From Echinarachnius parma (Eukaryota > Echinodermata > Echinoidea > Clypeasteroida > Echinarachniidae): a stretch of 64,000 nucleotides of DNA. Of the stretch, positions 24,947-63,704 are shown piece by piece. The notes under the pieces are model-generated. The model was not told the DNA's origin. It saw nothing but the letters and a program-made list of their open reading frames with translations, and ran no database searches. Within the stretch, counting starts at the first letter, position 1. Every line of letters begins with the position of its first letter. Made by a program: the position numbers and the translations under genes. The stretch is taken from positions 178,632-242,631 of the forward strand of contig JBAMJV010003081.1 of NCBI GenBank assembly GCA_037951105.1, given 5' to 3'.

Positions 24947-25579
24947 AGGGAGAGATCCTCTTTTGCAAGCCAAAATTCAAAAGTTGTGAGGTTATTGTCT
25001 TATATGAAAGGAAATGTCATTTAATAGCATGCCTGAAAAAAATTAGGGCTTGAAATCTCTTTTTCGTGGAGTTATAGACCTAAAACTGATTAAACTGAGG
25101 GACGTCGGTTAATTAGGTACATACGTATTTTCGGCCGGTCAGTAAGTTCATACACAGATTTCACAGAGTGCCAGATCGGTATGCATGACCCCTACGTGAC
25201 CCGCGCTAGCTACGTGTCCAGCGCATAAGTACTAATGTGTGAGCGCTTACCAAGCAAAATACCCAAACATCGCTTAAACTGACTACATGTAATTATAGGT
25301 TCTTTCTTTTTAAGATCTTTATCCGTGACATACGTTAACAAATGTCGGCTTCACAATACCTTTACGAGAATTAGTACTATATTGTTGTAATATTATGCTA
25401 AATCAGTTGAACTCCTTTATTGACCGATATAGAGTTTAAATGGAGGGACGCATTCGTTTTTCATTCGTAGAATCCAAATTAGAGGACTGTTCGCTCTGAT
25501 TTATTTTTTGCGTGTTACATTGATCCCCATCCGTCAACTGAAAGCTGTTCAGACAATTTGTAAAAGTGGACCTGTCCCT
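24947..25579. mobile_element. probable TTAA-type MITE in SNRNP25 intron
   Basis: Ends AGGGAGAGATCC and GGACCTGTCCCT are imperfect inverses, flanked by TTAA on the left and TCAA (one change) on the right. No coding frame is seen. It ends 35 bp before the last SNRNP25 exon, so the exon's acceptor tract lies just outside the element. Confidence 0.55.
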
Positions 25580-42300: not shown

Positions 42301-42858
42301 TGTGGAAAACTGGGGCATGCCGCATGACACGCATTGCCATGACACGCTAACATTGGTTAGGGCTTGGTACACTGGTGTTGACATGTGCATGCAATCGACA
42401 TGATACCAGTCTTGACAATCGTCACATGCAACGCCACGTTGATTCCATCTGACTGCACGGTTGCAGATCTGACATGGATATTTCACGCCGGTGCGAGGGC
42501 CTGGATTTAGTTCAACGTCTGAGGCATTAACGAGCAGTAACAAGCTAAGGTAGAGAAGAGCATGCGCCTTGGATCTAAAATCAGTAGAAACACCATGCCA
42601 CTCCAGTTGAAGTACTTTCCGCTTTCGATGTCTCTTCTGCAAGGAGTTTCTCAGCCCTTGATGAAGACGAAGTGGTTGAAGCAGATTACCTGCCCAGGGA
42701 GATCCATTTCTGCCATAGTTGTAGAACATCTTCAGACTGGAAATGTTTGATGAATGCACATCTGTCTCACCGGTTTGCTGGGTGGTCAATATGATGTTTG
42801 TGATGACTGACAAGAACAGAACCAAACAACAGCTGTTGATGAAACATCTAGAAGCCAT
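39355..42858 (-). CDS. CR1-like LINE polyprotein: signal-like leader, 2A, PHD finger, endonuclease, reverse transcriptase
   Basis: One frame of 1167 codons, with a single in-frame TAA at 39652-39654 near the C terminus; ND-FRRTSSVTTMLQLQW follows in the same frame. The N terminus has a hydrophobic leader (CCLVLFLSVITNIILTT). Residues 114-121 are DVELNPGP, a 2A peptide. A C4HC3 PHD finger follows (C129, C132, C145, C148, H153, C156, C176, C179). Next comes an APE-type endonuclease (NVNFQSVRNKKAEI, GTETWL, GGDFNLPDINW, GISDHDIV). The reverse transcriptase has APGPDRIPP, NYRPISLTSITCK, QHGFRNKRSC, LDLSKAFDKVPH, GVPQGSVLGPLLF and the catalytic FADD at about 913-916. The tail LWNALPKDMV is typical of the clade. 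It copies its own RNA by target-primed reverse transcription. The late stop would remove about 98 residues of the C-terminal region. Confidence 0.92.
42496..42557 (-). other. 2A ribosome-skipping peptide in the LINE frame
   Basis: The residues LLLLVNASDVELNPGP fit the 2A consensus D(V/I)ExNPGP, where the ribosome skips the Gly-Pro bond and releases the upstream peptide. The predicted upstream product is a 120-residue leader beginning with a signal-like segment; the downstream product begins with the PHD finger. 2A sequences at the N terminus of sea urchin non-LTR elements are established knowledge. The skipping itself is not shown here. Confidence 0.85.
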
Positions 42859-44589
42859 GGTTATAGTATCGTCTCAATTCAGTGTGTGTATGAATCGAGC
42901 CTGGTGACTCAATATTCCCACAAAAATTGTTCTAATCTAAAGACTAAAGTCTCTCAATTTTCCAGCCAAAATTGTCAATTTTGAAAATCTGTAGGATCCA
43001 TTAACAATAATATAGAATATCCAGATGGCTGCCACAGTAACATAAATAGAAAATACAATCAGGTTGCAGATGTCCGTAAACTATAAGTATAATACAGTCT
43101 CCTTTATACAGTCTATGGTGTACATGTAGTTGATGACAAGAAGTCAGGTGACTCCCTTTTCCCGCCAAAAATATTGATCTCCAAAATCTTGTTGACCAGA
43201 GTAACAAAATCAACAAGTAAAGTTAAAAAAATCAACAAGTAAAGTAAAAAAAAAACAACAAGTAAAGTCAAAATTTAATCAAAATATCCTAGGAAAGACT
43301 GATGCTACTTAAATAGCACATACGATTGTTTGTAGCTATCCATAAACAAGATCTAGTGGGCTGGAGAATGCATCCAAGTCCAGGAAAACTCAAGCTGAGC
43401 TGACACTACATGAAAAACCACACATGGGACTGGTGTTGTGAAGGCTGATTTCACATTGCAGAAGTAGTTGAGTAGAAGGTGTCTCAATATGCAATATCCA
43501 GGCAAAAACATCACACAAAATTCAGATATATCATTGAATCCAGCAATTCTTCCCAGTAAATAGAATAGACACACAAAATAAAGTCTCAAATGAGATGAAA
43601 AATATTGAGATTTTAAGAGCCAAAAAAGGGCACACACACGCTGCACTGTGCCATTGCCAAAAAAAAAAAAAAAACAAACAAAACAAACCTACTGTGCATA
43701 CAAACATTAACCCAAACCATGCCAGGGGGAGGGGGGGGGGGGGGGGGGGGGTTGGAATCCAACTGCAACGCGCGCAAGTATGGCCGCACGACTTCATGAG
43801 TTCTTTCATTGAAGTCTTGCGCAACTTTTGAGACCAAATTTGCGACGACCCAATATACCGTTTCCAAATTTACGTAACCTTTTGTAAGTGAATGTCGGCT
43901 CAAAAATTCCTAAATTTTGTGATTTGTGTAGAAATTCTATGGAAATGGACTTTTTCCTAGAATATACAAAACCTTCATTATTTTTTATTCCAATTACTGG
44001 AATTATTTTATTTTTAGCTTAAAATGGTCGGATAATGGCCAATAATTCATTCCATTTAAAAGAACAATACAAAAACAAACAAACAAGGAAATACATACAA
44101 AATACAAAAATAAAAACAGCTAAGGAAAACTAAACTAGGAAAATTCTGGCTGTCGCAATTTTTAATGTTGAAAACCTGTTAATTAAGTAATACAGAATAT
44201 TCATGCACAAAATTAGCATATTATTCTGAAAGTACATTTGGATGAAACGAATACATTTTCTTTCATGGATTTTTTCTAAGAGTGCAAGAGAACATGCAAT
44301 AAATCTATACATTCTTTACTTGTTTTTATTGTTTTCTCTGTCATTCTAACATAATTATATATTACTTTACTTCTTATACACTATATTCACCTTCCTTGCA
44401 CCCCTGCATATTGACACCCCTTTAAGAAATGATATGCCCCCAGACTATAATAATATGATTATTTACATATTACACATACTACGGAAAGAATCTTGTGTAA
44501 TGTGTACCGTGGTGAGAAGTCATGGAATTCTTGATGCAAGATCATGGAAAGTTCGTGGAATTTGACTTTGAAATAAGGGTATGAACCCT
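42859..44589. other. no gene seen; simple repeats and poly-G tract
   Basis: This may include LINE 5' untranslated sequence close to 42858. It holds three near-direct copies of ATCAACAAGTAAAGT-type sequence at 43208-43270, an A-rich run at 43659 and a G run of about 20 at 43729-43751. Short open frames lack recognisable features. Confidence 0.5.
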
Positions 44590-46240: not shown

Positions 46241-46520
46241 TCAAAACTTTAAAGCTATACTTTTCAGTTTAGCTTCTTCAAAGATACCACGAAGATCACC
46301 TCTTGCGTTAGGACCATTTCCATGCTGATCTTTCCACGACATGAGGACTTCTGTTATCGCCTGTACATAATTGTTGTTACATTCTTTCAGTTTGACGTTG
46401 GCTTGGTTGAAATTCGAACCAAGCTTTCCGCAGAGTCTATGATAGCGACCGTCAGCAGGGACTTCTTCAGCAATCTCGTAAATGAACTCTTCTGTCAATC
46501 CCTGTTCTGATTGACTAGTG
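46241..46520 (-). CDS. terminal exon: death domain
   Basis: After the pyrimidine tract TTTCCCTTTTCTTTTG the first AG ends at 46521; a second AG six bases on ends at 46515. Both give phase 2 and keep the frame. It reads TSQSEQGLTEEFIYEIAEEV then PADGRYHRLCGKLG then NQANVKLKECNNNYVQAITE then VLMSWKDQHGNGPNARGDLR then GIFEEAKLKSIALKF and TGA at 46241-46243. The six-helix death-domain pattern, with the W-K in helix 5 (LMSWKDQ) and an LRGIFEEAKL-type last helix, is clear. Death domains self-associate and recruit adaptors. Confidence 0.9.
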
Positions 46521-48887
46521 CTTATTGTTACAAAAGAAAAGGGAAATACAAATAGCTATAATTGTTAATAACTAGAAAATGTGATTGGAAAAGGACACCA
46601 TTTTGTAATAATTTTCCTGAATGTTGATGTTTTACCCACAGATTATTCAAAATTATTCCCTTCTTATAATTTCATAGACCTGGGCCCATATTCATGAAAC
46701 CCTGCTAGATTAGTTACTTGCTAAGTCTATTTTGGATGTCTTGGCTACTATGTTAGTTGCTTACTAAAGGTTCACTTAGTGGGTACCTGAAGTTTACCCA
46801 GCTAACCCTAGAGTTGGGGACTAGGAAAACTGTGTGTTGCTCAATAAACTGCACATTTAAAATACACTTAGCAAGTAACTAAGCTAGCGGGGTTTCATAT
46901 GGGGCCTGGTAAATTGTTTTATTGTTTTTTTAATAACTAGACCAATTGCTTTATGATTGTGTACTAGAGTGCAATTTGTTGGGTTCCACAGGATAAAACC
47001 ATTATTTCAAAAAGTAAACATTCAGAGGCGATATTAAAAAAAAATAGCAAAATAATACACATAAATAAAATAAAATAAAACTAAAATTAAAATAATACAT
47101 AAATCAAAAATACAAACAAATAAATAAAATACTATATTATCCTGAAAAGTCTAAAATATGATTTGAATACGATGAAGTAACGGTCTTAGCTTAGCAAATT
47201 CCTTGGTAAATGTCTCATTTATTCTAAGTATATAATTCAATACCAACACTGATATGTTTGTGAAATAATTTGTGAGGAAGAATTGAGTTTGTGGTTGTCT
47301 TTATGCAGGTTTACCTAAAATATATTACAAGTCGCTTCTTTTGTGCTGTATGTCGGTTATGATCCCTTTTTGTTTGCACATTATATTTGGAAGTGGCCTC
47401 CATGTGGTGCCTTGGTGCAATGTGAAGATTTTATACTTTTCTGGTTAATTTGACCACAGGAAGCTGGTTCTAATCTATTGTTTCCTTCCAGGACGTTTGG
47501 GAATATTTGTTGAACCCCATTGCATATTTCAACCATACACATAATATTAGCATTACTACAAACAGTGTTCCTGAATAGTTTTAACTAAATTTCATTCAAT
47601 GACAACTTATTATTGAAAATACGTATGACATATGACCAGACAAACTTACATGTTTACCTATCTTCAATCTGTTCACTTGTTATCTCACATTTTATGCCCA
47701 AATTTTGTTGAAGATTTTCGAAATAGTTACCATCGTTGTGGAAAATTAAAGAAAATCAATACATTTATTAAAGGACAATGAAACCCAAGCAAAATGTTGC
47801 TTTCGTAGACTTGCAGAGGATAGGAGGAATAATCTCTGAAAGTTGGAGCATATTTGGGCAAGAAACAAGTCAGAAAACTATAACTCTTTAAAGATGCACA
47901 TTTATTCCTATGGGGAACTCAAATTGGCAATGCACTCTGATAATTGTGTAGACTGCAGCTCCCCATATGTTTTGTACACAAATGTTTTTACAATGTTCTT
48001 ATAGTCAATGCATTCTACAAAACATAATTATGTTGAACTCAAACGAAGGGTAATCATACATTTTGAGAAAATTTAACAACATTGAAATGCAGTGTACAAA
48101 ATGTATGGGGAGTAGTCCAGAACTTTGATAGAGTGCGTTGCCAATTTGAGTCACTCGTAGTCTAAATAAATGGCTCTTTTCAAAGAGCCATAGTTTTCTT
48201 ATTTCTTGACCGATTGTGCTCAAATTTTCAGAGACTATTCATCCTATTTAGTGTCTTCTAGTGCATATAACAATTTGTCTGGATTTCATTATCCTTTACA
48301 GAGTCCATCCAAAAATGTGATAGTGGGCACAATGTGCCCCCCCCCCCGACACTTACATAATTATAACGTGATAATGCAAGCTTGACATCTCTTGACTCTT
48401 ACCTAGTTTCTTGCGGAGTTGTGTCGGTAGCTGTTGAAGAGGAAGCATATTACGATACATAATATTATGTTAGTCACTATAGTCGTAGCAATCATTTTAT
48501 CTGGCTGACGTTACCACATTATTATAATGATAACTCACTCGAAAACTAGATATAGTTATATAATGAAATAGATAATACAGTTTGTAAACAAATACAGTGA
48601 GTTTCATTTGTGGGAAATTAAGATAGATACATAGAAAATTACTATTTCATTTCATTTCATTTCATTTCATTTATTTTCATTTTCAACAACAAAAGTATAA
48701 TTTTACAAAATGATACACTGACAAAAATATTCTTACAGAAGTCATGAAATACATAATATACACAATACACAATACAAATCAGTAATGAATAATAATTGTT
48801 GAAAATGGAGGGCGCTGCTAAAAAGCAAAGCTTGTAGTGTGCAGCGCCCTCAAGAGTTACTCTTACATTACCTTAAACTACTAGATG

Positions 48888-48928
<41 letters not shown>

Positions 48929-51900
48929 TTACTACTACTAGTAATAATAATAATACTACAAGATAATCTCTCCCCTATGATGATAAATTTAAGAAAAAAA
49001 GAAAAAAATACAAATGTATACCTACAACCAATGAAAACTACTACTTAGAATGAAACCAAAAAAGAAGGGGAAAAAAAAAAAAAAAAAAAAAAAAAGAAAA
49101 AAGAAAAAAGAAAAAAAAGAAAAAAAAAAAATAATAAATAAATAAGGAGAAAGAAAAAGAAAATTGGGAGGTAAAGAGTTGTAGAGGAAAGAAAGTAAAA
49201 GACAATGACATAGAAAATATGGATCAGTAATCTCGCCAACCAAGGTAATCCGCAATGTTGACCAGGTCAGGGCACTAGTACACACTATATCATGTGAGTT
49301 CAATTCTATTTTATATAATATAATTTAATTAATTAAATTTAATTGATTAATTTTCCTTTTATATTATGAATGAGCCTAGTCTATTAAATACGAACATAAT
49401 AAGTGTTGTTTTAGTTTAGTTTTAAACTGATTGAGGCTAGGGGAGTCTTTTATTAAATCATTCAGATTATTCCAAAACTTGGGACCACTAAATGTTATAT
49501 TTGATTTCGCTAAGTGAGTTCTAATTAAAGGTAAATGATATGCTTCGGAGTTACGCGTTTTATAACGATGTATGGTGTTATTTTTAATAAACATATGCTT
49601 AAATACGTCAGGTTGATTACCAATATTGAAGTTATACATAAATTGTCCTAATTGATAACTATAAAGATCTTGAATTTTGAGTATATTATTATCTTTAAAA
49701 AGTTCATTAAACCATGTTTAACATTTGACTTGAACAAAGTTTTGTAAGAGGGCGAATAATTGTATAAGGCATGAAATTAGCAATTATGTACGTGATATTT
49801 AGAACTCCATTAACAAAACCAAATGAAAGTCTGATTACATTTGTAATATCATGACTACAGTATTCTTCCCGTTTTATACTCACTCTTTCCTTTGCTAGTG
49901 ATTTTTTCCCGCTCACCACCAGAACTAGTGCCAGGAATATCAGTGCCTGCATGCATACAAACCAATAGGTAATCACTCTTCTTATTTATGTTGACAAGGG
50001 TTCGTACATATTAAAGGAACTACAGCGTCTAGATGGCCTAATTTTCACAATTCGGCTCTCTATATGTAATTTTCCCGAAGAAAAAGAATTTGGCAGTCAA
50101 TTCTCATGAAATCAATCAATTTTGGGGTAATTAGTAAAATGTCCTGGGAACGCCCCTTTTAAATCGCCAAAATGTGACGTCATCTAAAGAACGGACTAAT
50201 GAACTAAATACTGTAGATGACGCGTCATGACGTAAGCCAATGAATTGTCAATCACATGTCAATCACGCTGCCGATTCCGGACCCTAAATGTGGGTGGGGC
50301 GTAAACTGGCTGCTAAGTGAGATTTGGCATCAGAAAATTAGTCTTAAATCACTAATGTGTTTATTTGTATGGATTTTTTTTCGGCAGACCTATGTTTCAA
50401 GTCATCAACTATGGAATAAGTGTCAAAGTACGTTGTATTATTTAGGTCCTTTAATCACTCGTTCTGAGACGGCTCTTGCAAATGAGGGAATTTTTAATTT
50501 TTTTTTTTGGGGGGGGGGGGGGGAATACTTGCATTTACAAGGCTATGTGTGCGTCTTGTATCCTAATTTTTTTTTTGTATAGACTTCATTTTGTGGTCAT
50601 GTGTGAAAAACAGAAGATTGATTGTTGAACTGTGAAATAAGTTCGGAAAGGGCCTTAAAGGGGTAGTTTAGTTTTGGTAGAGAGGGCGCTGCACATCACA
50701 ATTTTCTTGTGAGATAATGAAAAACTGAGTGTCGAATTTGAGAGAACATGCAATTTTAATGGCAGAATAAACTTCATTTTGTCAAAATCGGTCCAGAAAC
50801 GGCTGAAATATCAATAAATATATTTGATCTTTTAATTATTTTGGGCCCAAATAGTTAGATGATTTTTTCAAAAATTTAAAAAATGCTTACACTTTTTCAA
50901 AAATGTTCAAAAGCGTTTTTTAAATAGTTGTTGATGAACATCACATGCATTATTTGTATGAAAAATGGTTGAAACCAATGCCTTTTTAGAAAGCGCCTTC
51001 TTGTGTTTTAATGGCTCTTTTTTTTAAATGATAACAGGCTTTTTACTTAGTCGTTTGTAATTTTGTATACCTTTCGAGCATGGTGGAGTAATAACTATTA
51101 GTTTATAATGTTACTGTCCAGGTTTGGTTACTAAAGTTCAGCCTTACCAAACTTTACTACCCCTTTAAAGGAAATATGGAAATACGGGTGTAATACATGC
51201 CAAAAAGCGTGTAGAATCTGTGACACGATGTCGATGAGAAAACCAAATAGCTCAACAAGCATACGCAATTATAATATCGTCATACTTGTATTTCCAAATG
51301 CTGCCTGGCAAACATAAACAGAAGTACAATCGCCAAACATGTTAACTACCATGACTACAGCGGTAATCTTCCCTTTTGATACTCACTATTTCCTTTACTT
51401 GTAATTTTGTTCTGCTTACCACCAGAACTAGGGCCAGGAGTGTCAGTTCCTGAATGAATACAAAACAATACAGAATATGCAATCACTCTTCTAATTGATG
51501 TCGGCAAGGGTTCGTACACACACACATATATAGACACAAATTTAAAGATTTACACCTGTACGACTACGAACGTCATATACGTCATCAGTTGTACATCGGT
51601 GAGATCAAGCGCCGGTTGGCCAATAGGATCACCGAACACCTGAGATCCATCCGCCTCGACACTCCTGGACTCCCCGTGGCTGCACATTTCAACATAGGAG
51701 CCCATTCCGCTGGAGATGTTGAAGTGTACATCCTTAGAACTTGCTCCGGGGAAGGGGACCGCAAGGATGCCGAGCTTAGACTGATCCACAAGCTAGGGAC
51801 ATTGGCCCCCTCCGGCATCAACATTTCTTTCCGTGCTTTCCCCATTGTGCCCCATTAGCTGCATTCTCCTACCCTACCCCCCCCCCCCCTTCCCCTCCCC

Positions 51901-54900
51901 TACACACCAATCCTCAGTTACCATGGACTCTTCTGTATCCACCCCCAGTATTACGTAACAATCGTTTTGACCCAGGATCTGTGTTTTTTTTATCCCGCGC
52001 TTGCGCGCGCGCTCACAATCATTGACTTTCAAACTAAGTTGTGTTTTCTCACGGTGTTTTCTTTAAATTTTTGTCTGACTATTCACCACACCGACGCAGA
52101 CCTTTTTTTTAAAACTCTATATAGAGGCCATCAATACTGATAAAGCTACTGGTCCAGATGGAATCCCAGGCCAATTTCTGAAGAGTTTCGCCAAGGTTCT
52201 AGCACCAGTTTTGTGTTTCATCTTCCAGCAGTCACTGGTCAGGTACCATCAGACTGGCGCCTGGCGAACATCACACCAATTTTTAAAAAGGGAAACAAAA
52301 GCACCCCTTCAAACTATCGTCCAGTTTCCGTAACATCGATATGCAGTAAGTTGATAGAACATATCATCTTCAGTCAGATAATGCACCACTACGATACCAA
52401 CAACGTACTACACGACTCTCAACATGGTTTCCGAGCAGGCCGCTCATGTGAGACCCATTTAATTATGACAGCCGAAGATCTGGCACGTTCACTGGACCAA
52501 AAAGACCAGGTTGATGCGATTGCTCGGGATTTTTCGAAAGCTTTCGACCGTGTCCCCCATGAGCGCCTCTTACTCAAACTCAGACACTACGGCATCCGAG
52601 GCGAACTACAGCAATGGATCAGATCATTCCTCACAGACCGATCCCAGCGGGTGGTTGTAGATGGACAAGCATCTGACACGATCCACGTGTCATCTGGTGT
52701 TCCCCAAGGAACGGTACTGGGCCCCCTCGTGTTCATCACATTCATAAATGACACCTCCCATGGTATCACGTCCAAGCTAAGGCTGTTTGCAGATGCCTGT
52801 CTCATATACAATCCTATTCATGACATCTCGAACCACCATGCGCTTCAGCGGGACCTTGACCGCCTTCATCAATGGTCTCTTACCTGGCAGATGAAATTCA
52901 ACACAGAGAAATGTCATCTTCTACGGTTCTCACTCCGCCAAAACAACATTGAAGGCAATTACCTACTGGGCAAAACTCAACTTACAGCAGTTCAAAACTA
53001 CAAATACCTGGGTCTTACCTTTCCTCACAACCTATCCTGGCAAAAACACATTGATGGAATTGCATAGAAAACAAACCAAATGATCGGGCTTATCAATATG
53101 AATCTACGACGCTCTTCCCAGATGATCCGACAACAAGCCTTTTTCTCCCTAGTCAGACCTCGCTTGGAATATTGTGCAACAGTCTGGAATCCATATAAGA
53201 AGAGCATCTCAAAGATTGAAGCTGTACAGAGGCGAGCAGCAAGATTCGTTCTTCAACAATTCCGCCATTCTGAGAGTGTGTCTGCTATGATTCAACAACT
53301 TCAATGGAGTACACTGGAAAGACGCAGACACAACTCCTGCCTCAACCTCCTCTACAAAATTCAGAATGACATGGTAGCAATTACACCTGACCAACTACTC
53401 ACACCAATGGCCCCAAGCATCACCAGACAATACCACCCAAATAAGTTCTCAAGCATATACCTACTTGAACTCAGCTTTACCAGAACTCCTACTTCCCACG
53501 AACTGTCACAGCATGGAATGTGCTCCCCAATATCACTATGTGCCTCTGCGGGAGCAGTTGCCTCAATCGGCAATTAATGGGACACCTCACCGGTTCCCCT
53601 CGACTCTACGTCCTGACTGATGGACCCTGTCGAGTACCCAAGTAGAAGTAGAAGTATATATACACTACTCACAACAAGTAAGTACCCCCCTAGCATGTTG
53701 TCATATATCTCAAAAAGTATTTCACCGATTTTGATCATTCAAACGGTAATGGATGCGCAATCTTCTTACGCACAATGTGAATGGTAAATGGTTGCCACAG
53801 CCTTACTTTTTCATCATCAAAAAATGATTTTCTAAAACAAAGTGCCCCCAAAAAAGTTTCACTTTCAGTTTTATTTGGCATAGTGGGTACATTTTGTACA
53901 CGAGTAAGCTTTTGAAAACTGGTTCCACTGTGAACAATGCAGCAGTAGTACTGAATTACATAGCAGATTGGTGAATTAGGCCAACTCCAATAAAGATGAA
54001 AACAGGACATGACTTCGGCCATTCTAATCCCCCGCAATTTCATATTGAAAGGCCTATTGTTTTAGAAAAAATCATGCTTTTGAAAAATGGTGTCACGAAG
54101 AACAATGCAGCAGTAGTAGTGGATTACATAATAGATTTGTGTGTCGGGTAGTCTTCAATAAAGATGTTTACTCGTATACAAAATGTACCCAGTATGCCAA
54201 ATAAAACTGAAAGTGCAACTTTTTTTGGGGGGCACTTTGTTTTAGAAAATTCATTTTTTTTGATGATGAAAATGTAACGCCATGGCAACCATTTATCACT
54301 CACATTGTGCGTAAGAAAATTGCGCATCCATTAACGTTTGAATGATCAAAATCGGTGAAATACTTTTTGAGATATATGAACAAATGCTAGGGGGTACTTA
54401 CTTGTTGTGAGTAGTGTATATATATCGATACTTTTGAGAGGGCTCTTGCAATTGTATTCAAGAAAAATCGAATTGACGTATATGACCACAAAAATGGCAT
54501 TAAAGTCTGCTTATATGCATTTATCATATCGTTATCAAGTTTCGACCACTACAAACACAGTTCGATAACCCAAAAAGCAGCAGCAGGATTAATGCCAAGA
54601 ATATCAACAGCTGATCAACTCTTCCTAGTTAATTTCATATCAACAATTTTATTTCTGCAATCAATATACAAGCTGCAACAAAAAAGTTGATACTGATTAA
54701 AGCGGAATAATCCTTGAAAACGGATCCACCATCGAGGATGCAAAATGGAACTGGGATGGGCCACGGGTGCAGTACACAGACTGAAGTCACTGAACACAAT
54801 TAGGCGATTCCTCAAAGTAAGAACACAAATAGAACTTGTCCTACCAATCAAATTGTATGGAGCAGATAATGGACGCTCCGAAAGGAAGTTGCGAACAGAC

Positions 54901-57900
54901 TTCCTACATTCGAGATGTTTCAGATAAATCATAGAATATATCATGAATCATAGAATGTACAAAGTTAGACATACATCTATCAGAGACCATTTCAACAAAC
55001 TAATCAACATAATCTTAAATAACAGAATAATGCTCCTTTGGACACATCCAGCCAATTAAATAATCAGGTCTCCCCAAATTGCGATGGATGGGAGTTCCAG
55101 GGGCCCAGGGGGTAGAAATCCTATGAGATAGACGGATTGCCATAAAGTTGACTGCAAAGAAAGGAATGTGCACACAATTACAGAGACTAGTCAATTTGCA
55201 AGATATCAGAAAGATGCGAGGGAATTACGAAGCGGATGGCACCTCTCCACCCTCCGTTTGAGTAAACGGCAAAAATCAAGTAAGTCACAGTAGGTCGCGC
55301 CAATGCTGATCAACCATACAAATGTAGCCCTTTACAACAACTAAGAAATGGCGTCTTGTTGACTGCATGTGACAGTGAAGTCATCACACAAATGTAATAC
55401 AAAGAAGATATTATATGACAGCTCATGTTATTTGTATGTTTTCTTTGCGAAATTGTCTTTTCTTTTTACCTAAACATATTGTGTAAATAATTGAATTGAA
55501 GGCAATGTCTTCAATTTGTAATCCCCATAGTATACTTACTCTTTCTTTTTCCAGAGATTTGTGTCCTCTGACCGTCAGAACTAGTGCCAGGAGTGGCAAT
55601 GTCTGCATGAACGCAACACAATACAGCATGAATAAGTCTGTATCTAAACATGCATGTGCTATTATTTGGTGACAAGGGTTAGCAATTCTAGATAAATCAT
55701 ACTGAAAAGGTTCTTGTGATGTATTCAAGTTATATCATGTTGGAATGTGCATGTAATATGGTATATGCGATAAGTCAACCGTTTATAGATGCTTTGTTTT
55801 CACATATTAAATATTTTTTTTGCCAGAGCAACAGACGATGGTTACTAACCCGTTAACTACGGGAACCGTGTTTTTTACGGCTCCCATACGACATGTTTAG
55901 AGACTGGAGCCGTGATTTCCCGGTTCCGAGGAAACCCTATTTTTGGGGCTTGAAAATCATAATATTGTGATTTTTTTTCCAAATGGACTGCAATGAAAGA
56001 GTGAGGTCCCATCTACCTCCTGCTATGTACAGTTCTATAGTACAACAATTTTAGTAGATTCTCAAGGCGCATAGAGGGAAGCTATCCATAGGGGTAGCTG
56101 CAGGCACTCTAGACCGTGTGTTATTTGTATAACATAACACAGTACGCAGGTCAGTGAATAAGAACCAACCCATTTAACTAACTTTTTTTTGTTCATCCCT
56201 TAAGACATAATTATAAAAAGTTAAGAAAAGCGTTATATTGCATTGAAACACAATTACGATACTCCTTGATTGGATGCATCGATCTGATTGGGTACGTGGT
56301 AGATCAACATAATTATGTCATTGTGTATTAACAACTCACTATTTTGCAAGAAGGTGTTCTTTATACGTGAAGCCAAAAGTTGTGAGCTGATTGTTATATT
56401 TTGTTTGGCCTACTTATGATACTGTTCATTATGAAAAACCCTATGAGTAGGCCTAATTATGTCTAGCCGATTCTGACATTACTGCAATGATTTATTTTAC
56501 ACACAAAATGAGTAGGTTTGCATACAAACAGGTAAAACAAATACTATTTTGAGGTATGTTTATCAGAACACAGACGTATTCGCTCCTTTCTCCAATGATG
56601 CTCACAGTGACACATGACACTAACACATGATCACACGTGACCAAGAGTAATTATAAGTGATATTGTCTCATATCAGGTGTAGGAACAATTGGAAAATAAT
56701 GTTAACTACCATGACGAGGGCACTCTTCCCTCTTGATACTCACTCTTTCTTTTAAGGGTAATTCTTTTCCGCTTACCACCTTGAGTGTCAGTTCCTGCAT
56801 ATACAAGATAATAATTATAATATCAGGTGAATACTCTTCCCATTTATTCTAACAAAGGTTGTTAATATGGATCAATTATTCTGAGAGTGCTCTTGCAATG
56901 TATTTAAGATAAATCGATTGACGTGCATCTTGTGTAGAAAAAGACGATTTTACTATATTGATTTGTGAAATATGAAATAATATAACCACAAAAAGGGCTT
57001 TACAATTAGGTGATCAGTGTAACGCATTTATCACATTGTAATCAAGTTTCAATCAATACGAACAGAGTTTGGTGACCTCACAAGCAGAGGTATGATTTAA
57101 GCCAGGAAGATCTACAACTGATCAACTCTTCCCATTTAATTCAATATCAATTCTGCAATCAATATACAAAGAGTGGATACTGATTACGGCGGAATAATCC
57201 ATGAAAACGGATCCACCACCGAGGATGCAACACAGAACTGGGCAGACTATGGTTGCAGTACACAGGCTGAACACAATAAGGAGATTCCTCAAAATAAGAA
57301 CAACACAAATAGAACTTGTCCTACCAATCATATTGTATGGAGCAGAAACATACACGCTCCAAACAGAAGATGAGAACAGACTTACTACACTTGAGTTGAT
57401 ATATCCTAGAATGGACAACGTTAGTGATACATCAATCAGAGAGCAGTTCAAGAATGTAATCCACACAGTCTTCAAGAAAAGAATATCCTCCATTGGACAA
57501 ATCTAGCCAATGTAATTAGCAGGTCTCCCGAAATTACAATGGATGGAAGGTCCAGAGGCCCAACCTTAGGGGAAGAAACCCTAAAAGATAGACGGATTGC
57601 CATAAAGTTAATGTGCACACAATAACAGAGACTAGTCAATTTGCAAGATACCAGATAGTTGCGAGGGAATTACGAAGCGGATGGCACCTCTCCACCCTCC
57701 GTTTGAGTAAACGGCAAAAATCAAGTAAGTCACAGTAGGTCGCGCCAATGCTGATCAACCATACAAATGTAGCCCTTTACAACAACTAAGAAATGGCGTC
57801 TTGTTGACTGCATGTGACAGTGAAGTCATCACACAAAGGTAATACAAAGAAGATATTATATGACAGCTCATGTTATTTGTATGTTTTCTTTGCGAAATTG

Positions 57901-60900
57901 TCTTTTCTTTTTACCTAAACATATTGTGTAAATAATTGAATTGAAGGCAATGTCTTCAATTTGTAATCCCCATAGTATACTTACTCTTTCTTTTTCCAGA
58001 GATTTGTGTCCTCTGACCGTCAGAACTAGTGCCAGGAGTGGCAATGTCTGCATGAACGCAACAAAATACAGCATGAATAAGTCTGTATCTAAACATGCAT
58101 GTGCTATTATTTGGTGACAATTGCATGGTTAGCAATTATAGTTAAATCATACTGAAAAGGTTCTTATGATGTATTCAAGTTATATCATGCTGGAATGTGC
58201 ATGTATGGTATATGCAATAAGTCTTCCGTTTATAGATGCTTTGTTTTCACATATTAATTGGGTTTTTTTTTTTGGCCACGAGCAACAGACGATGGTTACT
58301 AACCCGTTAACTACGGGAACCGTGTTTTTACGGTTCCGATAGGATATGTTTAGAGGCTGGAGCCGTGATTTCCCGGTTCCGAGGAAACCCTATTTTGGGG
58401 GCTTGAAAATCATATATTGTGATCTGTTTTTTCGAAATGGACTGCAATGAAAGAGTGAGATCCCATCTACCTCCTGCTATGTACAGTTCTATAGTACAAC
58501 AATTTTAGTAGATTCTCAAGGCCCCTAGAGGGTAGCTATCCATAGGGGTAGCTGTACTATACAAAATGAGGATCGCTATTCATGATTATGAGAAGAGGGC
58601 CACTATTCATACTGTAAGATGAGGGTCGCTATTCATAATATTATAAGAGTAGGATGGCTATTCATCATACGAAATGAGGGTCGCTATTCAGAAAATGTTA
58701 TTCATGAAACCTCTCCAATGTTTTTTTTTTGTGTTGTATGCAGGTAAAAGACGGAGGAGAATTAAAGTGAATTAACGACATGAAAACGAGAAAAAAAGAT
58801 CAATCAGTTGCAAACTATAAATAATTAAGGAAAACAAAATGATAAAAAAGAGAGGAAATACTGAATGGGTGACACGCCCACATTGGTAGCGTAGCTAACG
58901 AGGAGGGGGGGGGGGGGGGGGGGGGCTGGGTTGTCCCCGAATAATTTGGCCAAACAATATAAAACATAAGAGGTAAACGTTATCATTCCATGAATAGGTG
59001 GACCCTCTTCTGACATTATGAATAGAGAACCTGTTATTACATTATTAGTAGCACCCCCTTCTTCATGTTCATGATTAAACAATTGTGCTTGAGCGCGAAG
59101 ATGTTATTATTGAACAGGTAAATCAATTTAAGTATTTAGGGGTCATACTTGATAAACACATTGATTTGGTATGTGCAAAGCTAGCTAGGGACTATTGGGT
59201 ATATTAGACAAATTAAGAAATATTTACCGAAACAAGTTTTGATTCTGCTATATAATGGTTTAATTCTTCCACATTTGATATTGAAAGTAAAGCGTCTTCA
59301 AAATAGATACGCTCGCTTGATTCGGAATGCGGATGTTGAAACAAATTGGCAATCTGTCTTACAAAGAGTTAATTATCAATTATGTTTGTATATGTTTAAA
59401 GTTATAAATGGACTTTCACCAGAGTATTTGAAGGTTATGATAATTTTTAGAACTTAAAGGGATAGTTGAGTTTTGGTAGAGAGGGCGCTAGACTACTTTT
59501 TTTGTGAGGTAATGAAAAACTGAGTGTAAAATTTGAAAGAGCATAATATTTAAATAATAAAATCATCTTTGTTTGATCAAAATCGGTGCAGAGACGCCTG
59601 AAATATCCATAAATATAACAATTTGTAATAAACCTAGGGCCCCAGGTTTATTAGAGAATTTTGAACCAGCCGTTAAAAATTCAAAAAAATGCTTCCTCTT
59701 TTCAAAAAGTTACAAAATAGGTATTTAAATAGTTGTTGGTTATTTCTCTATCTAATCACTATTTCAACAAAGCATCACGTGCACAATATTTTATTCAAAA
59801 TAGTTGAAACCGATGAGTGTTTAGAGAGCGCCCTCATGTTTTAACGGCTCTTTTTGAATGATAACATGATCTTTACTACGTCATTTGTAATTTTGTGTTC
59901 CTTTCTAGTTATAACTATTAGTTTGTAATGTAATGATGCAGGTTTTGGTTACTAAAATTCAGTTTCACCAAAACTGTACTCTACTTACTAGAACTCAACT
60001 ATACCTTTAAGCCAAACAAAGACTATATGAAAAGGTCCTTTCAGTATTTAGGTTCGATAATTTGGAACAATCTCCCACTTTGCATTAGAAATACCACATC
60101 CGTTGCGTCTTTTAAAAGGCAATGTAAATTATTATCACTTATTGATCGCATTTAATTACTAATATATATTTCCTAGTATACATTTTAGTAGTAAATATAT
60201 TACACACTACCACAGTTCCTAATCTGAGTAAAAGTTAGGTTTTTTTAATTTTTTGTTTGTTTGTTTTAGTTTGTTTTTGGATGAAAGTAGTTGTTAGTTA
60301 TCTCTGACACTGATTTATTAATTATTTTATCTATATATTTGTTATTCATTTTGTGTTGTTGTGTTCAGAATTGTGCATTGTATTGTTTTTTATTGTACGC
60401 AGGGCCCCTTGGTAGATCAGTTGTTTAACTGAAAGAGCAACCCGGTTGAAATAAAACGTTAATAAATAAATAAATAAATAGCGGTCCTTATAAGCAGGGA
60501 CCTTCAATATGAATTATAAAGATCGACCCTCATCTAAGTTTTTCTTATTGATAACGGACCTTATGCCTTTATTATTAGCGACCACTATTTGCGTTTTTTT
60601 TTAAAGCGGTCCTTCAGTATATAGGGAAATAGCACAATATGACTAGCGGGTTTTATAAATAGCGAGGTTACCCCAATTATGTGATCCACTTTTTAGTGCA
60701 AAATATTTTTAGCAAGAAATGGGGGACAATATTCGTTACAATTATGATGACCATAACGAGTAACGTAAGTTGACTGTCTGCAAAGCCGAAATAATAATAT
60801 TGTGAAATATTAGTAGTGTGTGTGTGTGTTGGGGGGGGGGGGGGGGGGGGGGGGGGGTGTAGGATTCGTGGATTATGGTGCTCAGTATGTTGAGACAAAT

Positions 60901-63704
60901 CATCGAAATAAATCAATTACTTACTAGAATAGTTTGTCGGTACAATGAATTGTTCGTCCAATTCAACTTCTTGGTGAAGGAACATTTCAACAATCAAAGT
61001 TTCCATACGTTCTTTCAAATCAAGAATGACATGGAAGTGATGTTTGAACTGCCGCATGACAGTCTGCTTCCGCAATGTTTTCTATAACAAAACACATAAT
61101 TAATTAATTACATATACTCGATAGTTATAAGTTAATATTTTAACAAAATTACGCCACCCTAAGTTGTAGGATGATATTATTAAGTTCTCATTTCAAATTG
61201 AGGGACAACGTGAAGTTAAATTCACATTGAGCTTTCACCTTTTGGATTCACATTAGTATTGTTTTGTGTATTGTCTGATACATTTGCATAATTATACACT
61301 CAACGACTTTGGCACATCTCTATTTGTACAAATTTTAAACGAAATCTTGCATTTTGTTTTGTTTTCATTCGTGACATTAAGTGTGGGCTTAACACCATCA
61401 CGCATAATACAAAATACTTCAGAAAATCGAGATTAACCTTGCGCAGTCCGACCTCGGAAAAGCATTCAATATGATGATTTCAGTACCAAGCAAAATGGGC
61501 AATTTCTAACGTCACGGACATTACGCATCTCTGATAATTATATTAACTTTTGTGTAGTTTCTTTTTGAGAGCAAATTCAGTGGAACAATGTTGCATTTTC
61601 AAATTCAGCATTTACCAAGTGGCTAATTAAACCTAAATTAATGTATAATGCTCCATAAAAATACAGAAGAAGAGAAGTCAACATGCATGTTAATATCAGG
61701 GAATCTTTGAATAAAAATCTAGTGAACCGATACGGTTAGTCTCGTACTATTGAAATGCCAAACTTACAAGTGTATATCTCGGTCCGCATTAATTACAAAA
61801 CTTATGTAGCCTATGTGAACTGTATGTATCATACCTGTTTAAGAATGCTGCCAGTGTCGTCCCCGACTCGCTTACAGGTAATCTCCAAGTCCCCACTTAT
61901 GCTGTTAGTCTGCAAACAGAATTCCTGCTCAGGTAGTACAATTCTATAACCTGCTTCTCGTTCTGCTTCTTTTATTTTCTGTAAGTCAGGAATGAAAATG
62001 GAGTATTCATGCAGAATGGATGTAAAGCTTGAATAAAAGCTCAACAAGATGTGGTAATTCATATAATGTAGCCAAGCTTACAAAATTAGTATGTCTTCGA
62101 GCGACGTCCTTCTTTTATTTAGAGTATCTTCATACTATTGTGTTTATAGATCACCGTCGACGACCTGACTGTCTTTATCAATGTTTATGCAGTATATTGT
62201 GGGACTAGCGTTTTCCTAATATGTTTTGTTAGGTTGTGTGTGTGTGTGGGGGGGGGGGGGGGGGGGGTTAATGGTGGCACGTGAATTATTTTTATTTTAT
62301 AGTTCAGGCAAATGGCACAGATGATTTAGTTGTTGTTTCGCATGTTCTTGGTATTTTGTAAGGTGCGTAAGTAATTGCGAATAGGATTTGAATTCGTTAA
62401 TTGAATATCCTTGGCGAATGTCGCCATTTCTAAATTTGTATAATATCACTTTACATTGATTACATTAATAATAACCCTCTAAGAAAATTGATGTGTATTT
62501 TTATTGATATGCTTTGGTTTAGCAAGAAAAGAGTTATAATTTTTTCGAGTTAGTTACCTTTATTTCTTGTTCAACAGCCTTGTAGCACTTGTTGTACGCG
62601 TATGCTCGCAGGACGGGCCTGTTTGTTTTACCCATGTTCTCAGGAAGGAAGCAAGCAAATCCCATGAGTTTTGTAATATCGCCCCCTTCCAATAGAACGG
62701 TATTCTCGCTTTCCTGACAAAAGTGGTCAACAACAAGCTCAAGGAACTCTTCGTGAATTATGCATCTAGGCATTCCTTCTGCTGACAGCGGTGTCCTTGC
62801 AATCGTCACTGTAAATAGGATCAATATATGGGTAATAATGACAACTAAACTTTGAAGTTTGTTTTAATTACATTTATGTGCATGGTTGCTTGGGTTGGAA
62901 TTTAACCCACATGAAATCATATTATCTCCGGGCTCGTATCAAAATCAGATATTCATCCACATCCGGCAAAAGAGGCACACATCTCAAAGGTAAGTTTTCT
63001 GCCACACAATTATATACAGCTGTTGACAATTTTGCTTTATTTTAGATTTTGATCAATATGTATATTTACATCATGCACATATAACATACACTGGGTCAAC
63101 CTGAGTGGGCGATCACCCATTCAGGCGCTTTGACCTCACTATTTGACTTTCTTGACTAAATGAGTTTTTACCCCGTATTTACATGTATCTATGATAACAA
63201 TTATGTAATTGTTCAATTCTAAAATAACACACATGATAAGACAAAAACATTTATTACAAGGGAATTGAAGATAAATTGTGGATATGAAAAATGTTTTTGT
63301 CTATGTCCGTCTTTAAGTCTGGTAACGATTATCCTTCTAGAAAAAATGACAAATATTTACTAAACTTAACAAAATTACGTACCTCCATCCTTTTTAGCAT
63401 ACAAGACAGCATTGATATTCTCGGAATTAGTCCACCTTGCACAGTGGGGCATCATCAATGTGAGAGGTTCGAAAAAACGATCCAGGTTTGAGCTGCGTTT
63501 GCATCGGCATGTCAAAGCAACCACAATGTCATTATCTGCAATGTTTTCAGGAACCTTTTCAACAGCTTCGATAGAAATCACTTCATCATGCCCCTCTGGG
63601 AGAGCATTGGCTGGAATGGTTAACGTGATGTTACATCTTTTCAGGTGGAGAGCTCCTCCGGAACTATCGAAACGTTGTTCTTCCCTTTCCCGGAATATAT
63701 TTGT
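46241..63704 (-). CDS. ZU5-UPA-death-domain protein (UNC5CL-like), 3' part of gene, eleven exons
   Basis: Exons read right to left: 63704-63383, 62808-62558, 61978-61835, 61081-60925, 58047-57985, 56794-56744, 55602-55540, 51449-51387, 49946-49884, 48430-48403, 46520-46241. All have GT donors and AG acceptors, adjoining phases match, and the total is 1485 nt (494 residues plus TGA). The order is ZU5, UPA, a charged helical stretch, a Ser/Lys-rich repeated linker and a C-terminal death domain, as in UNC5, UNC5CL and PIDD. In those proteins ZU5-UPA-DD forms a closed module and the death domain recruits partners in apoptosis or NF-kB signalling. Exons before ZU5 (a membrane or ankyrin part, if any) lie beyond 64000, so which subtype it is remains open. 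The modular linker is not a feature I know from the family. Introns contain many mobile elements. Confidence 0.85.
46681..46909. mobile_element. foldback MITE (TGGGCCCATATTCATGAAAC ends)
   Basis: Ends GGGCCCATATTCATGAAACC and GGTTTCATATGGGGCC are imperfect inverses, and the arms with CTTGCTAAGT and AGCAAGTAACTAAG pair. Lies in the intron between E6 and the death-domain exon. Confidence 0.65.
46910..47771. other. intron, no further feature seen
   Basis: A+T-rich intron sequence of the death-domain gene with A-rich runs at about 47035-47120. No exon-like segment with matching phase was found. Confidence 0.4.
47772..48296. mobile_element. TTAA-type MITE (AGGACAATGAAACCC ends)
   Basis: Left end AGGACAATGAAACCCA after TTAA; right end GGATTTCATTATCCT before TTAC. 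Inner arms (CCCCATATGTTTTGTACA and its complement) pair. Lies in the intron between E6 and the last exon. Followed by a short poly-C run. Confidence 0.65.
48403..48430 (-). CDS. last linker exon E6 (28 nt, phase 1 to 2)
   Basis: Acceptor CTCTTCAACAG, donor AAACTAG/GTAAGAG. With the preceding A it reads T-TDTTPQET and leaves AG, so it is a shortened relative of the cassettes (TDT-P core) that changes the phase from 1 to 2 to suit the death-domain exon. It is therefore obligatory in the frame if the exon after it starts at 46520 or 46514. Confidence 0.65.
48646..49720 (-). mobile_element. LINE 3' remnant with microsatellites
   Basis: On the minus strand 49639-49376 encodes a LINE C-terminal tail (RYKTRNSEAYHLPLIRTHLA, ITFSGPKFWNNLNDLIK, LNQFKTKLKQHLL). 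The element ends at its 3' side in a TTTCA/TGAAA simple repeat near 48646. It contains a (CTA)n tract at 48888-48940 and an A-rich tract at 49068-49140. Same family type as 21311-21834. Confidence 0.7.
49884..49946 (-). CDS. linker cassette exon E5 (63 nt)
   Basis: Phase 1-1, residues TDIPGTSSGGEREKITSKGK. Acceptor GCATGCAG, donor AAAGA/GTGAGTAT. The flanking intron matches that of E4, so exon and intron were duplicated together. Confidence 0.75.
50015..50450. mobile_element. TTAA-flanked MITE (AGGAACTACAGCG ends)
   Basis: TTAA at both ends, termini AGGAACTACAG and the inverse TTTAGGTCCT, 436 bp, no coding frame. In the intron between E4 and E5. Confidence 0.55.
50510..50524 (+). repeat. poly-G tract
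   Basis: A run of about 15 G after a T-rich stretch; intronic. Confidence 0.9.
50659..51164. mobile_element. TTAA-flanked palindromic MITE (AGGGGTAG family)
   Basis: Ends AGGGGTAGTTTAGTTTTGGT and CCAAACTTTACTACCCCT flanked by TTAA. An uninterrupted 506-bp copy that shows where the nested insertion in the 23557 copy lies. In the intron between E4 and E5. Confidence 0.85.
51387..51449 (-). CDS. linker cassette exon E4 (63 nt)
   Basis: Phase 1-1, residues TDTPGPSSGGKQNKITSKGN. Acceptor CATTCAG, donor AAATA/GTGAGTAT. Flanking intron sequence (GCAATCACTCTTC, GGCAAGGGTTCGTACA) resembles that beside E5. Confidence 0.75.
51550..52085 (+). mobile_element. Penelope-like element fragment: GIY-YIG endonuclease and 3' tail
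   Basis: The frame 51559-51858 reads LYIGEIKRRLANRITEHLRS then RLDTPGLPVAAHFNIGAHSA then DAELRLIHKLGTLAPSGINI. This is the C-terminal GIY-YIG endonuclease found in Penelope-like retroelements. The YIG motif, the Arg pair and the Glu of TEHL are present; the upstream GIY-like strand is replaced by LYDYERHIRH. The reverse transcriptase is missing because cassette E4 lies directly to the left. The tail to about 52085 is C-rich and then of mixed composition. Inserted in the linker-exon intron. Confidence 0.75.
52120..53656 (+). mobile_element. 5'-truncated CR1-like LINE reverse transcriptase
   Basis: It begins in the reverse-transcriptase fingers (TDKATGPDGIPGQFLKSFAK) and runs through NYRPVSVTSICSKLIE, QHGFRAGRSCETHL, RDFSKAFDRVPHERL, GVPQGTVLGPLVF, the catalytic box and YKYLGLTFPHNLSWQKHIDG to the tail. 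It is broken: a frameshift near 52235, a TAG at 53065-53067 (reading continues in the same frame) and another frame change near 53480. The catalytic box reads FADA, with the second Asp changed to Ala (about 52786-52797). The 3' end has an AAGTAG-type simple repeat (53640-53656). Confidence 0.85.
53663..54416. mobile_element. Tc1/mariner-type foldback MITE
   Basis: TA on both sides and ends CACTACTCACAACAAGTAAG with the inverse. The two arms of about 375 bp pair over most of their length (for example CGCACAATGTGAATG and its complement near 54300). 754 bp, no transposase. Confidence 0.85.
54575..54605 (-). pseudogene. decayed linker cassette in copy A
   Basis: TTAATGCCAAGAATATCAAC resembles CTAGTGCCAGGAATATCAGT of E5, and the following AACTCTTCCTAGTTAATTT matches the intron beside other cassettes. 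Splice sites and full reading frame are not retained. Confidence 0.5.
54720..55215 (+). mobile_element. LINE polymerase tail fragment (copy A)
   Basis: A short open stretch at 54745-54927 (LKSLNTIRRFLKVRTQIELV then LPIKLYGADNG) matches the better preserved fragment in copy B. It is the thumb-side region of a non-LTR reverse transcriptase and is degenerate. Confidence 0.55.
55540..55602 (-). CDS. linker cassette exon E3 (63 nt)
   Basis: Phase 1-1, identical to E1, in the other copy of a segmental duplication. Acceptor and donor are intact. Confidence 0.75.
56744..56794 (-). CDS. linker cassette exon E2 (51 nt)
   Basis: Phase 1-1, residues TDTQGGKRKRITLKRK. It is homologous to the other cassettes but lacks four codons of the PGxSS part, and its basic run KRKRITLKRK is the strongest of the set and resembles a nuclear localisation motif. 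Acceptor ATATGCAG, donor AAAGA/GTGAGTAT. Confidence 0.7.
57090..57120 (-). pseudogene. decayed linker cassette in copy B
   Basis: TTAAGCCAGGAAGATCTACA followed by CTGATCAACTCTTCCCATTT aligns with the cassette-intron junction of E2, E4 and E5 and with the decayed copy at 54575. Not usable as an exon. Confidence 0.5.
57190..57660 (+). mobile_element. LINE polymerase tail fragment (copy B)
   Basis: The frame 57201-57506 reads VHRLNTIRRFLKIRTTQIEL then VLPIILYGAETYTLQTEDEN then IREQFKNVIHTVFKKRISS. The motif LLYGAETWTL-like is typical of RTE/CR1-type LINE C-terminal regions. Truncated at both sides. Confidence 0.65.
57985..58047 (-). CDS. linker cassette exon E1 (63 nt)
   Basis: Phase 1-1, residues IATPGTSSDGQRTQISGKRK. 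Acceptor TTCATGCAG, donor AAAGA/GTAAGTAT. Identical over all 63 nt to E3 at 55540-55602, including the splice sites. Confidence 0.75.
58556..58720. repeat. degenerate minisatellite (GGTCGCTATTCAT type)
   Basis: About five imperfect 25-35-bp units with GAGGRTCGCTATTCAT. Related words continue at 58970-59040 and, on the other side of a LINE insertion, at 60478-60640. Confidence 0.6.
58904..58925 (+). repeat. poly-G tract
   Basis: About 22 G interrupted only at the edges (GAGGAGGGGG start). Intronic for the death-domain gene and transcribed as poly-C. Confidence 0.9.
59060..60480 (+). mobile_element. LINE 3' fragment split by a MITE
   Basis: The left part encodes a LINE polymerase tail (QVNQFKYLGVILDKHIDL-like, then LILKVKRLQNRYARLIRNAD and LYMFKVINGLSPEYLK). 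The right part continues with FQYLGSIIWNNLPLCIRN then TTSVASFKRQCKLLSLIDRI and ends in (TAAA)n at 60462-60480. The MITE at 59458-60006 separates them. Inserted in a degenerate minisatellite. Confidence 0.75.
59458..60006. mobile_element. TTAA-flanked palindromic MITE (AGGGGTAG family)
   Basis: Ends AGGGATAGTTGAGTTTTGGT and ACTCAACTATACCT, TTAA on both sides. A 549-bp copy, more diverged than the others, inserted in the LINE tail. Confidence 0.8.
60831..60857 (+). repeat. (TG)n followed by poly-G tract
   Basis: GTGTGTGTGTGTT is followed by about 27 G. It lies 68 bp 3' (in gene direction) of the exon ending at 60925, so the poly-C in the transcript is close to the donor of that exon. Confidence 0.9.
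60925..61081 (-). CDS. exon: charged helical segment after UPA
   Basis: 157 nt, phase 0 to 1: KTLRKQTVMRQFKHHFHVIL then DLKERMETLIVEMFLHQEVE then LDEQFIVPTNYS. Basic then amphipathic-helical, with no named domain. It may complete UPA. The acceptor is TTGTTATAG and the donor TTCTA/GTAAGTAA. It ends with one base (A) that is completed by the two bases starting each linker cassette. Confidence 0.8.
61082..61834. other. intron of death-domain gene
   Basis: A+T-rich intron. No extra exon or defined repeat identified. Confidence 0.5.
61835..61978 (-). CDS. exon: UPA domain
   Basis: 144 nt, phase 0 to 0, 48 residues: KIKEAEREAGYRIVLPEQEF then CLQTNSISGDLEITCKRVGD then DTGSILKQ. The E-x-x-x-G-Y then beta-strand pattern fits UPA domains (LEKQLGGxL...LRLSI in UNC5). 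The acceptor is CTGACTTACAG and the donor AAACAG/GTATGA. Confidence 0.85.
62247..62267 (+). repeat. (TG)n followed by poly-G tract
   Basis: GTGTGTGTGTG then about 20 G, inside the intron 61979-62557. Confidence 0.9.
62558..62808 (-). CDS. exon: end of ZU5 and start of UPA
   Basis: 251 nt, phase 1 to 0. The acceptor TATTTACAG is followed by TG, completing a GTG codon with the previous exon. It reads TIARTPLSAEGMPRC, HEEFLELVVDHFC (the ZU5 closing strand, compare VDHFC in UNC5), GGDITKLMGFACFLPENMG and RPVLRAYAYNKCYKAVEQEI, the start of UPA. The donor is AAATAAAG/GTAACT. Confidence 0.85.
63383..63704 (-). CDS. exon: ZU5 domain
   Basis: 322 nt, phase 0 to 1. It starts after GGGCAG (weak pyrimidine tract) with TNIFREREEQRFDSSGG and shows the ZU5 signature GGALHLKRCNITLTIPANAL then PEGHDEVISIEAVEKVPE. 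The donor is GGATGGAG/GTACGTAA. ZU5 domains bind spectrin in ankyrins and pack on UPA and DD in UNC5. The weak acceptor leaves some doubt about the exact 5' edge. Confidence 0.8.

Follow-up and report, generated by a model that had tools for sequence, protein, structure and literature searches.

A 64,000-nucleotide (nt) stretch of the echinoid Echinarachnius parma, hereafter the window (GenBank assembly GCA_037951105.1, contig JBAMJV010003081.1, positions 178,632 to 242,631), carries on its minus strand what appears to be the 3' portion of a gene that belongs to a large family. The predicted gene encodes, in order, a ZU5 domain, a UPA-like region, a linker and a death domain (DD)-like end, and its product is putatively a cell-death or immune signalling protein. 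The window forms the end of its 242,631-nt contig in a genome of 1.2 Gb, and both stop 296 nt upstream of the ZU5 exon. In this genome, COX1 (contig C14600) has ATA codons where other animals have isoleucine, a codon change common to echinoderms and hemichordates (PMC2697986), which places the animal in one of these two groups; AAA is present once in its 433 codons, where asparagine is usual. Between the UPA-position exons and the DD-like last exon lies an array of five short exons, here termed cassettes C1 to C5, followed by an exon of 28 nt (Table 1). Paralogs are referred to by labels for contigs of the same genome (C4050, C4513, C5030, C5208, C6741, C9683, C9861, C10202 and C12932).

Exons of the window gene

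The cassettes had been described in a first-pass annotation of this DNA as five homologous mini-exons, and their AG/GT borders, lengths and phases were confirmed. Its total of 495 codons for eleven exons, which includes one terminal stop, also stands, given a last exon that starts at 46520. The next AG that could serve as acceptor, at 46514, would give 493 codons; paralog exon starts, compared by eye, favour 46520. A hidden Markov model (HMM) of the five cassettes found no sixth copy in the window, where its next hits had E 7.2.

Table 1. Exons of the gene in the window, in order of transcription, with the evidence for each.
Feature	Position	Strand	Evidence or remarks
E1, ZU5 exon	63383..63704	-	Pfam ZU5 (PF00791) 34.9 bits, cut-off 21; splice sites
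E2, end of ZU5 and start of UPA-position region	62558..62808	-	open frame, splice sites, paralog matches
E3, UPA-position exon	61835..61978	-	splice sites, paralog matches
E4, UPA-position exon, phase 1 at end	60925..61081	-	splice sites, paralog matches
Cassette C1, class A, 63 nt, phase 1-1	57985..58047	-	splice sites, genome query, HMM
Cassette C2, class B-short, 51 nt, phase 1-1	56744..56794	-	in-frame 12-nt gap relative to class B
Cassette C3, class A, 63 nt, phase 1-1	55540..55602	-	identical to C1; within a segment of 1.65 kb that has a repeat 85% alike
Cassette C4, class B, 63 nt, phase 1-1	51387..51449	-	splice sites, stop-free frame
Cassette C5, class B, 63 nt, phase 1-1	49884..49946	-	splice sites, genome query
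28-nt phase-adapter exon, phase 1 to 2	48403..48430	-	28-nt counterparts in five paralogs
Death-domain-like last exon with stop codon	46241..46520	-	Pfam Death 20.0 bits, E 0.00078, below cut-off 22.6; paralogs

The ZU5 domain scores above its Pfam cut-off (Table 1) and was matched in three of the five rows of a family alignment, the window's included; the corresponding exon is missing from the input of the other two. The UPA-position region is conserved among the paralogs in this alignment and lies in the right place. When the ZU5-UPA part was searched against the Protein Data Bank (PDB), ZO-1 appeared at E about 0.02, and the remaining matches were unrelated proteins. With the DD-like exon, a PDB profile search gave the PIDD death domain at E 0.67-0.74, ranked behind four unrelated rows. 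A single-sequence structural model of this exon (predicted local distance difference test score 71) had no Foldseek match at E <0.001, and a second look gave no clear match.

An HF(C/S) motif in E2 was considered as a site of autoproteolysis, by analogy with PIDD and FIIND proteins, whose HF/S or SF/S site stands immediately ahead of the following strand, and found unsupported. HF is invariant in all five rows of the family alignment, is followed by C or S, and lies some 16 residues before KLMGFACF, whereas the cleavage site SF/S of CARD8 and NLRP1 (PMC3210808) directly precedes the LMG strand (LMGILLR in CARD8), judging by eye from the printed peptides. The residue at the position corresponding to the CARD8 site, again aligned by eye, varies between T, S and Q in the family, and no aligned conserved site was found.

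The 28-nt exon had been listed in the first-pass annotation as a further relative of the cassettes, which does not agree with its distribution: a counterpart of the same length sits in the same place in two paralogs that have no cassettes. A scan for AG-exon-GTRAG (overall rate, with the true exons counted, 0.035 per kb and strand) yielded one candidate each in C4050, C9683, C5030, C10202 and C9861, so that an exon of exactly 28 nt precedes the DD-like exon in five of the six paralogs that have one. C4513 and C5208, in neither of which a DD-like exon was found, gave no candidate, and C12932 gave none that resembled the others. The five paralog exons resemble each other at 16-28 of 28 positions and the window's at 13-16; the window's exon matches the cassettes at 12-14 of 28 at best offset, and sequence alone thus separates the two poorly. 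A sixth cassette was rejected on the basis of position and length in the five paralogs. Since the frame stands at phase 1 after E4 and at phase 2 where the DD-like exon begins, an exon of length 1 mod 3 has to lie between them. The 28-nt exon keeps its length, phase and place even in genes that lack cassettes, and is therefore best described as a phase adapter. Judged from this comparison, the cassettes are additions placed before it; given how poorly sequence separates the two, a distant common origin with the adapter is conceivable.

Cassette copies and their duplication

Cassettes were sought across the genome with five cassette DNA queries, in a seeded search that can miss diverged copies. 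Only seven contigs were matched, the window's own included. One of them, C6741, was found by a single query, and diverged copies may hence be missing from the count. Family exons (ZU5/UPA or DD-like) are present on six of the seven; in the seventh, C6741, 300 nt were examined, and it is not among the scored family-exon matches. In total, 20 copies were counted on these contigs, the window's five included. HMM searches recovered 19 of them at E <0.01 on the window and five contigs, and a model built from the five window copies alone recovered the same 19; this count leaves out a fourth, partial match in C9683 (E 0.11 with the latter model, E 1 with the former). On the five other contigs the window model reached E 3e-25 to 2e-9, against a best value of 1.6 on reversed sequence, and the homology of the cassettes exceeds chance by this measure. 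A degenerate (IUPAC) pattern for the cassette core was not enriched (270 matches versus 330 in the reversed control).

This distribution bears on the possibility that the cassette is part of a dispersed transposable element that happened to hold splice sites and was exonised. The cassette intron does contain repeats, including a broken reverse transcriptase, but over 1.2 Gb the five queries of the seeded search match only seven contigs, six of them with family exons. An origin of this kind is very improbable, and a dispersed repeat was rejected as the source of the cassettes.

Two long interspersed nuclear elements (LINEs) are recognisable in the window. One, at 39652-42873 on the minus strand, has an unbroken frame of 1073 residues with a PHD finger, an endonuclease and a reverse transcriptase; DVELNPGP in its N-terminal part resembles a 2A ribosome-skipping motif. 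The other is represented by the broken reverse-transcriptase frames at 52144-53577 on the plus strand, in the intron between cassettes C3 and C4.

Most copies have the form of intact exons. Both splice dinucleotides and a length divisible by three are present in 17 of the 19 copies (51 nt in eight, 63 nt in six, 66 nt in two and 69 nt in one), the donor is lost in two, and the phase-1 frame is free of stops in all 19. In the twentieth copy, on C6741, the terminal donor is gone, and an internal GTAAGT would give an exon of 30 nt that is still frame-neutral. By tblastn, C4050 and C5030 have both E4 and a DD-like exon beside their cassettes, C9683 only the DD side, and C5208 and C4513 only the ZU5-UPA side. 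In the four arrays of at least two copies, class A comes first and is followed by B or B-short (classes assigned by eye; tree supports are modest).

Two further arrangements were observed in paralogs. On C5208, a cassette relative lies upstream of ZU5 at 25167-25258, with a 69-nt exon and AG/GT borders; the window-only model gives it E 1.7e-9 when splice flanks are included, and the exon by itself 0.0035. The cassette module may thus also be used N-terminal of ZU5. On C4050, two consecutive DD-like exons (14844-14716 and 14479-14228) lie downstream of one array, the first aligning only partly.

Copy number could be compared among genes in which both flanks, the E4 side and the DD-like exon, were seen. 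The same intron holds five cassettes in the window, two in C4050 and six in C5030, while the HMM found none in C10202 or C9861, both of which have E4 and a DD-like exon (the best match in C10202 is antisense to the gene, 35 nt long with E 0.023; in C9861 the best E is 3.6). In C5030, five B-short copies are spaced at 1.85, 3.49, 1.86 and 1.86 kb, and the repeat units are 98.1-99.8% identical over their aligned parts, which contain no N. In the window, the segment around C1 is repeated around C3 with 85% identity over 1651 nt, and the two exons are identical. The near-identical units of C5030, together with this segment repeat, indicate that the arrays grew recently by tandem duplication. The earlier proposal that linker length and charge vary with cassette number can therefore be upheld at least between paralogous genes, which carry zero, two, five or six copies.

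The family itself is large. Genome searches gave 134 scored matches to the ZU5/UPA exons (of 481 first-look candidates) and 150 to the DD-like exon (of 509); among the paralogs, C4249, C11989, C1337, C10703 and others were covered for cassettes by the DNA queries only. Individual members are mosaic. Relative to the window, C10202 is 98% identical in E1 and still 87% in E2, whereas identity drops to 45% in E4 and to 46% in the DD-like exon, and the cassette region of C9683 is 92% like the window's while its DD-like exon is at 42%. These mosaics point to recombination or conversion among family members. In addition, C10202 (27201-36000) and the window (62551-63318) share 94% nucleotide identity over 772 nt, covering E2 and the E1-E2 intron.

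Linker variation and maintenance of the cassettes

Without cassettes, the linker of the window gene would comprise 18 residues with a charge of -3; with all five it would reach 119 residues and +14, next to a ZU5-UPA part with a net charge of -9. Each cassette encodes a head rich in Thr, Ser, Gly and Pro and a tail of Lys and Arg, and lengthens the linker by 17 or 21 residues while raising its charge by 1 to 7. Up to 32 combinations by alternative splicing had been suggested for the array. All 32 inclusion subsets are indeed open and in frame, but they specify only 28 distinct linkers because C1 and C3 are identical.

Charge rather than length may be what matters. KRKR is read as a localisation signal, and under this explanation the basic tail would act as a nuclear or lipid-binding signal of KRKR type, with length a by-product. 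The full linker, at +14 and with three KRKR motifs, fits such a role, as does the peptide of the C5030 cassettes plus adapter (+27 over 111 residues), whereas a single cassette leaves the window linker at only -2 (C5), 0 (C1, C3 or C4) or +4 (C2). We regard a pure localisation module as rather doubtful.

Splice-site strength was scored with a simple matrix. Cassette donors score 2.8-3.0, E4 3.1, and E1, E2, E3 and the 28-nt exon 4.0-5.4; the weaker cassette donors fit optional use. These values bear on a second explanation, in which intact cassettes are always included, so that each gene has one set linker length, which differs only as copy number evolves between paralogs and individuals. Splice sites are present in all five window copies, copy number ranges from 0 to 6 among paralogs, and the units of C5030 were duplicated very recently, all of which would be expected of a constitutive array. 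On the other side, four of the five non-cassette donors outscore those of the cassettes with this matrix, and the 1-1 phase renders skipping harmless, neither of which is proof of skipping. Constitutive inclusion is a real possibility, though the lesser one beside optional use of the array.

A further splice option is restricted to one class. All eight distinct B and B-short copies hold an in-phase internal donor, G|GTRAGC, at 18, 30 or 33 nt, which is found in none of the six class A copies; a score of this kind is expected 0.029 times per 63 nt by chance. The copies share ancestry, and the eight therefore count as one observation. Use of the internal donor in C2, C4 and C5 would cut off the basic tail. 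Among four B copies, the tail past this donor and the head are conserved to a similar degree (0.84 and 0.87).

Whether cassettes are maintained as exons was assessed by comparing exons and flanks with shuffled sequence in nine between-class pairs and one within-class pair. Across the nine, identity over aligned exon columns is 63-80%. The adjoining 20 nt to either side of the cassettes also lie above the shuffle mean, some barely, while at 61-300 nt 16 of 18 flanks are not above the best shuffle (two of 20 are above it when the within-class pair is added). Within classes, exon identity exceeds intron identity in four of five comparisons: 0.90 and 0.94 versus 0.70 for C9683, 0.88 versus 0.79 for C5030, 0.86 versus 0.79 for C4513, and 1.00 versus 0.91 for C1 against C3. 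Supporting this, all length differences among the 17 intact copies are multiples of three.

Several observations weigh against maintenance and against the wider reading of the gene. At 21-60 nt, seven of 20 flanks lie at least 0.09 above the shuffle mean, such that similarity does not end sharply at 20 nt, and duplication of short segments could mimic similarity limited to exons. Against C4050 there is no exon excess (exons of C1 0.90 and C2 0.86, introns 0.88); near flanks are often as conserved as the cassette exons, and the exon-intron differences carry no significance test. The ratio of nonsynonymous to synonymous substitution rates (dN/dS), pooled over 13 distinct copies, is 0.63 in class A, 0.79 in B, 1.26 in B-short and 0.75 overall; the two wrong frames give 1.21 and 0.85, and one of them is also free of stops. 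A neutral simulation gave zero stops in 24% of runs, which is not significant, and the four splice columns are not unusually conserved relative to random columns (P 0.11). Terminal donors are lost in three of the 20 copies overall, and the donor of the C4513 copy, GTTAGT, scores 1 or less, although this copy is counted among the 17. At the level of domains, no Pfam UPA match was listed up to E 10 for the window or the family-alignment rows, and the Pfam Death match, obtained in one of five members, is sub-threshold (Table 1).

Some of these points would be expected if the cassettes were decaying duplicates, that is, functionless copies hitch-hiking in duplicated intron segments and mostly skipped. 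The equal exon and intron identity against C4050, weak codon constraint, non-significant stop and splice-column tests, and lost donors are all consistent with decay. It sits poorly, however, with the four A/B pairs, in which exons are 68-75% identical while no flank at 61-300 nt beats the best shuffle, and with both the within-class exon excess and the triplet length differences. Decay is thus unlikely to explain the array. We read the cassettes as exons kept as exons, with a sequence constrained only loosely, as that of a disordered linker would be; amino-acid constraint on them appears weak.

A proposed tunable linker and its known parallels

The linker between UPA and DD is already known to take regulated exons. 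In ankyrin-G (Ank3), E35a is a regulated 27-nt microexon in this linker; a preprint (PMC12713133) gives inclusion of 0.65 in GABAergic versus 0.14 in glutamatergic neurons, and reports that a UPA-DD fragment without E35a pulls down about 30% of InsP3R1. The giant exons of ankyrins likewise come after UPA (PMC5135030). Ankyrins thus parallel what is proposed for the present gene, an optional exon in a disordered UPA-DD linker, but with single exons and not an array of duplicates. They also have 24 ankyrin repeats and two ZU5 domains. Neither ankyrin repeats nor a tandem ZU5 were seen here by eye in plus-strand stop-to-stop frames of at least 75 residues within the 11.3 kb of C5208 and the 8.4 kb of C4513 that precede E1, and two Pro/Ser/Thr-rich open frames from these upstream regions, run against Pfam, had no match. 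According to the first-pass annotation, nothing comparable was known from this family. A literature search that left most subscription papers uncovered turned up no duplicated array of cassettes in the UPA-DD linker, but given the ankyrin precedent the statement was too strong.

Other proteins share the domain order. CARD8 and NLRP1 combine, within and after their FIIND, ZU5-UPA, a flexible linker of 17 or 25 residues and a death-fold domain (PMC7794386), which is a CARD there and DD-like here. The cytoplasmic part of UNC5B has the same order of ZU5, UPA and DD. UNC5B is a membrane receptor with immunoglobulin and TSP1 domains, none of which were seen upstream here, where the window contig ends before any upstream exon. 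Its delta8 isoform skips one exon, which is not a cassette array.

For arrays of short exons, the parallel is the PEVK region of titin, which has many more exons than the array described here. It consists of short, highly repetitive exons with many alternatively spliced isoforms and length variation, and acts as an entropic spring (PMC6469411, PMC7274174). Titin is an unrelated protein, and the spring role established there is only inferred here. Both the linker position that takes regulated exons and the tuning of a spring by short-exon arrays are therefore already known, each from a different protein.

Taken together, the explanation that we favour, with somewhat better than even confidence, is that the phase 1-1 cassette array serves as a linker before the DD-like exon whose length and charge can be tuned. 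The basic plan of the family would run from E4 through the 28-nt adapter to the DD-like exon, giving here an acidic linker of 18 residues. Some members would have gained a phase 1-1 mini-exon in the intron between E4 and the adapter, which then diverged into classes A and B and multiplied by tandem duplication of segments. Cassettes would be spliced in, in variable number, and the resulting linker may be disordered. A longer, basic linker could loosen or re-route the death domain relative to the acidic ZU5-UPA part or, alternatively, add KRKR-type localisation signals; possible partners of the added positive charge are membranes, the nuclear import machinery and the acidic module itself.

A more far-reaching form of this proposal is tentative and, on balance, improbable. 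Here, the tandem exon array would constitute an adjustable, charge-switching tether, with fast change in copy number, an internal class B donor that selects length and charge separately, and a large, recombining ZU5-DD family as its setting. Under that proposal, cassette copy number would probably also differ between individuals.

How easily signalling complexes form can depend on the linkers that join a regulatory module to a death-fold domain, and the sister genes described here offer a ladder of such linkers with zero, two, five and six units. If these units are spliced in, the ladder would amount to a natural experiment in how release of the death domain is governed by the length and charge of its tether, in parallel to the titin spring. 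If true, this would provide a fast, copy-number-driven route of diversification for what may be a family of innate immunity.

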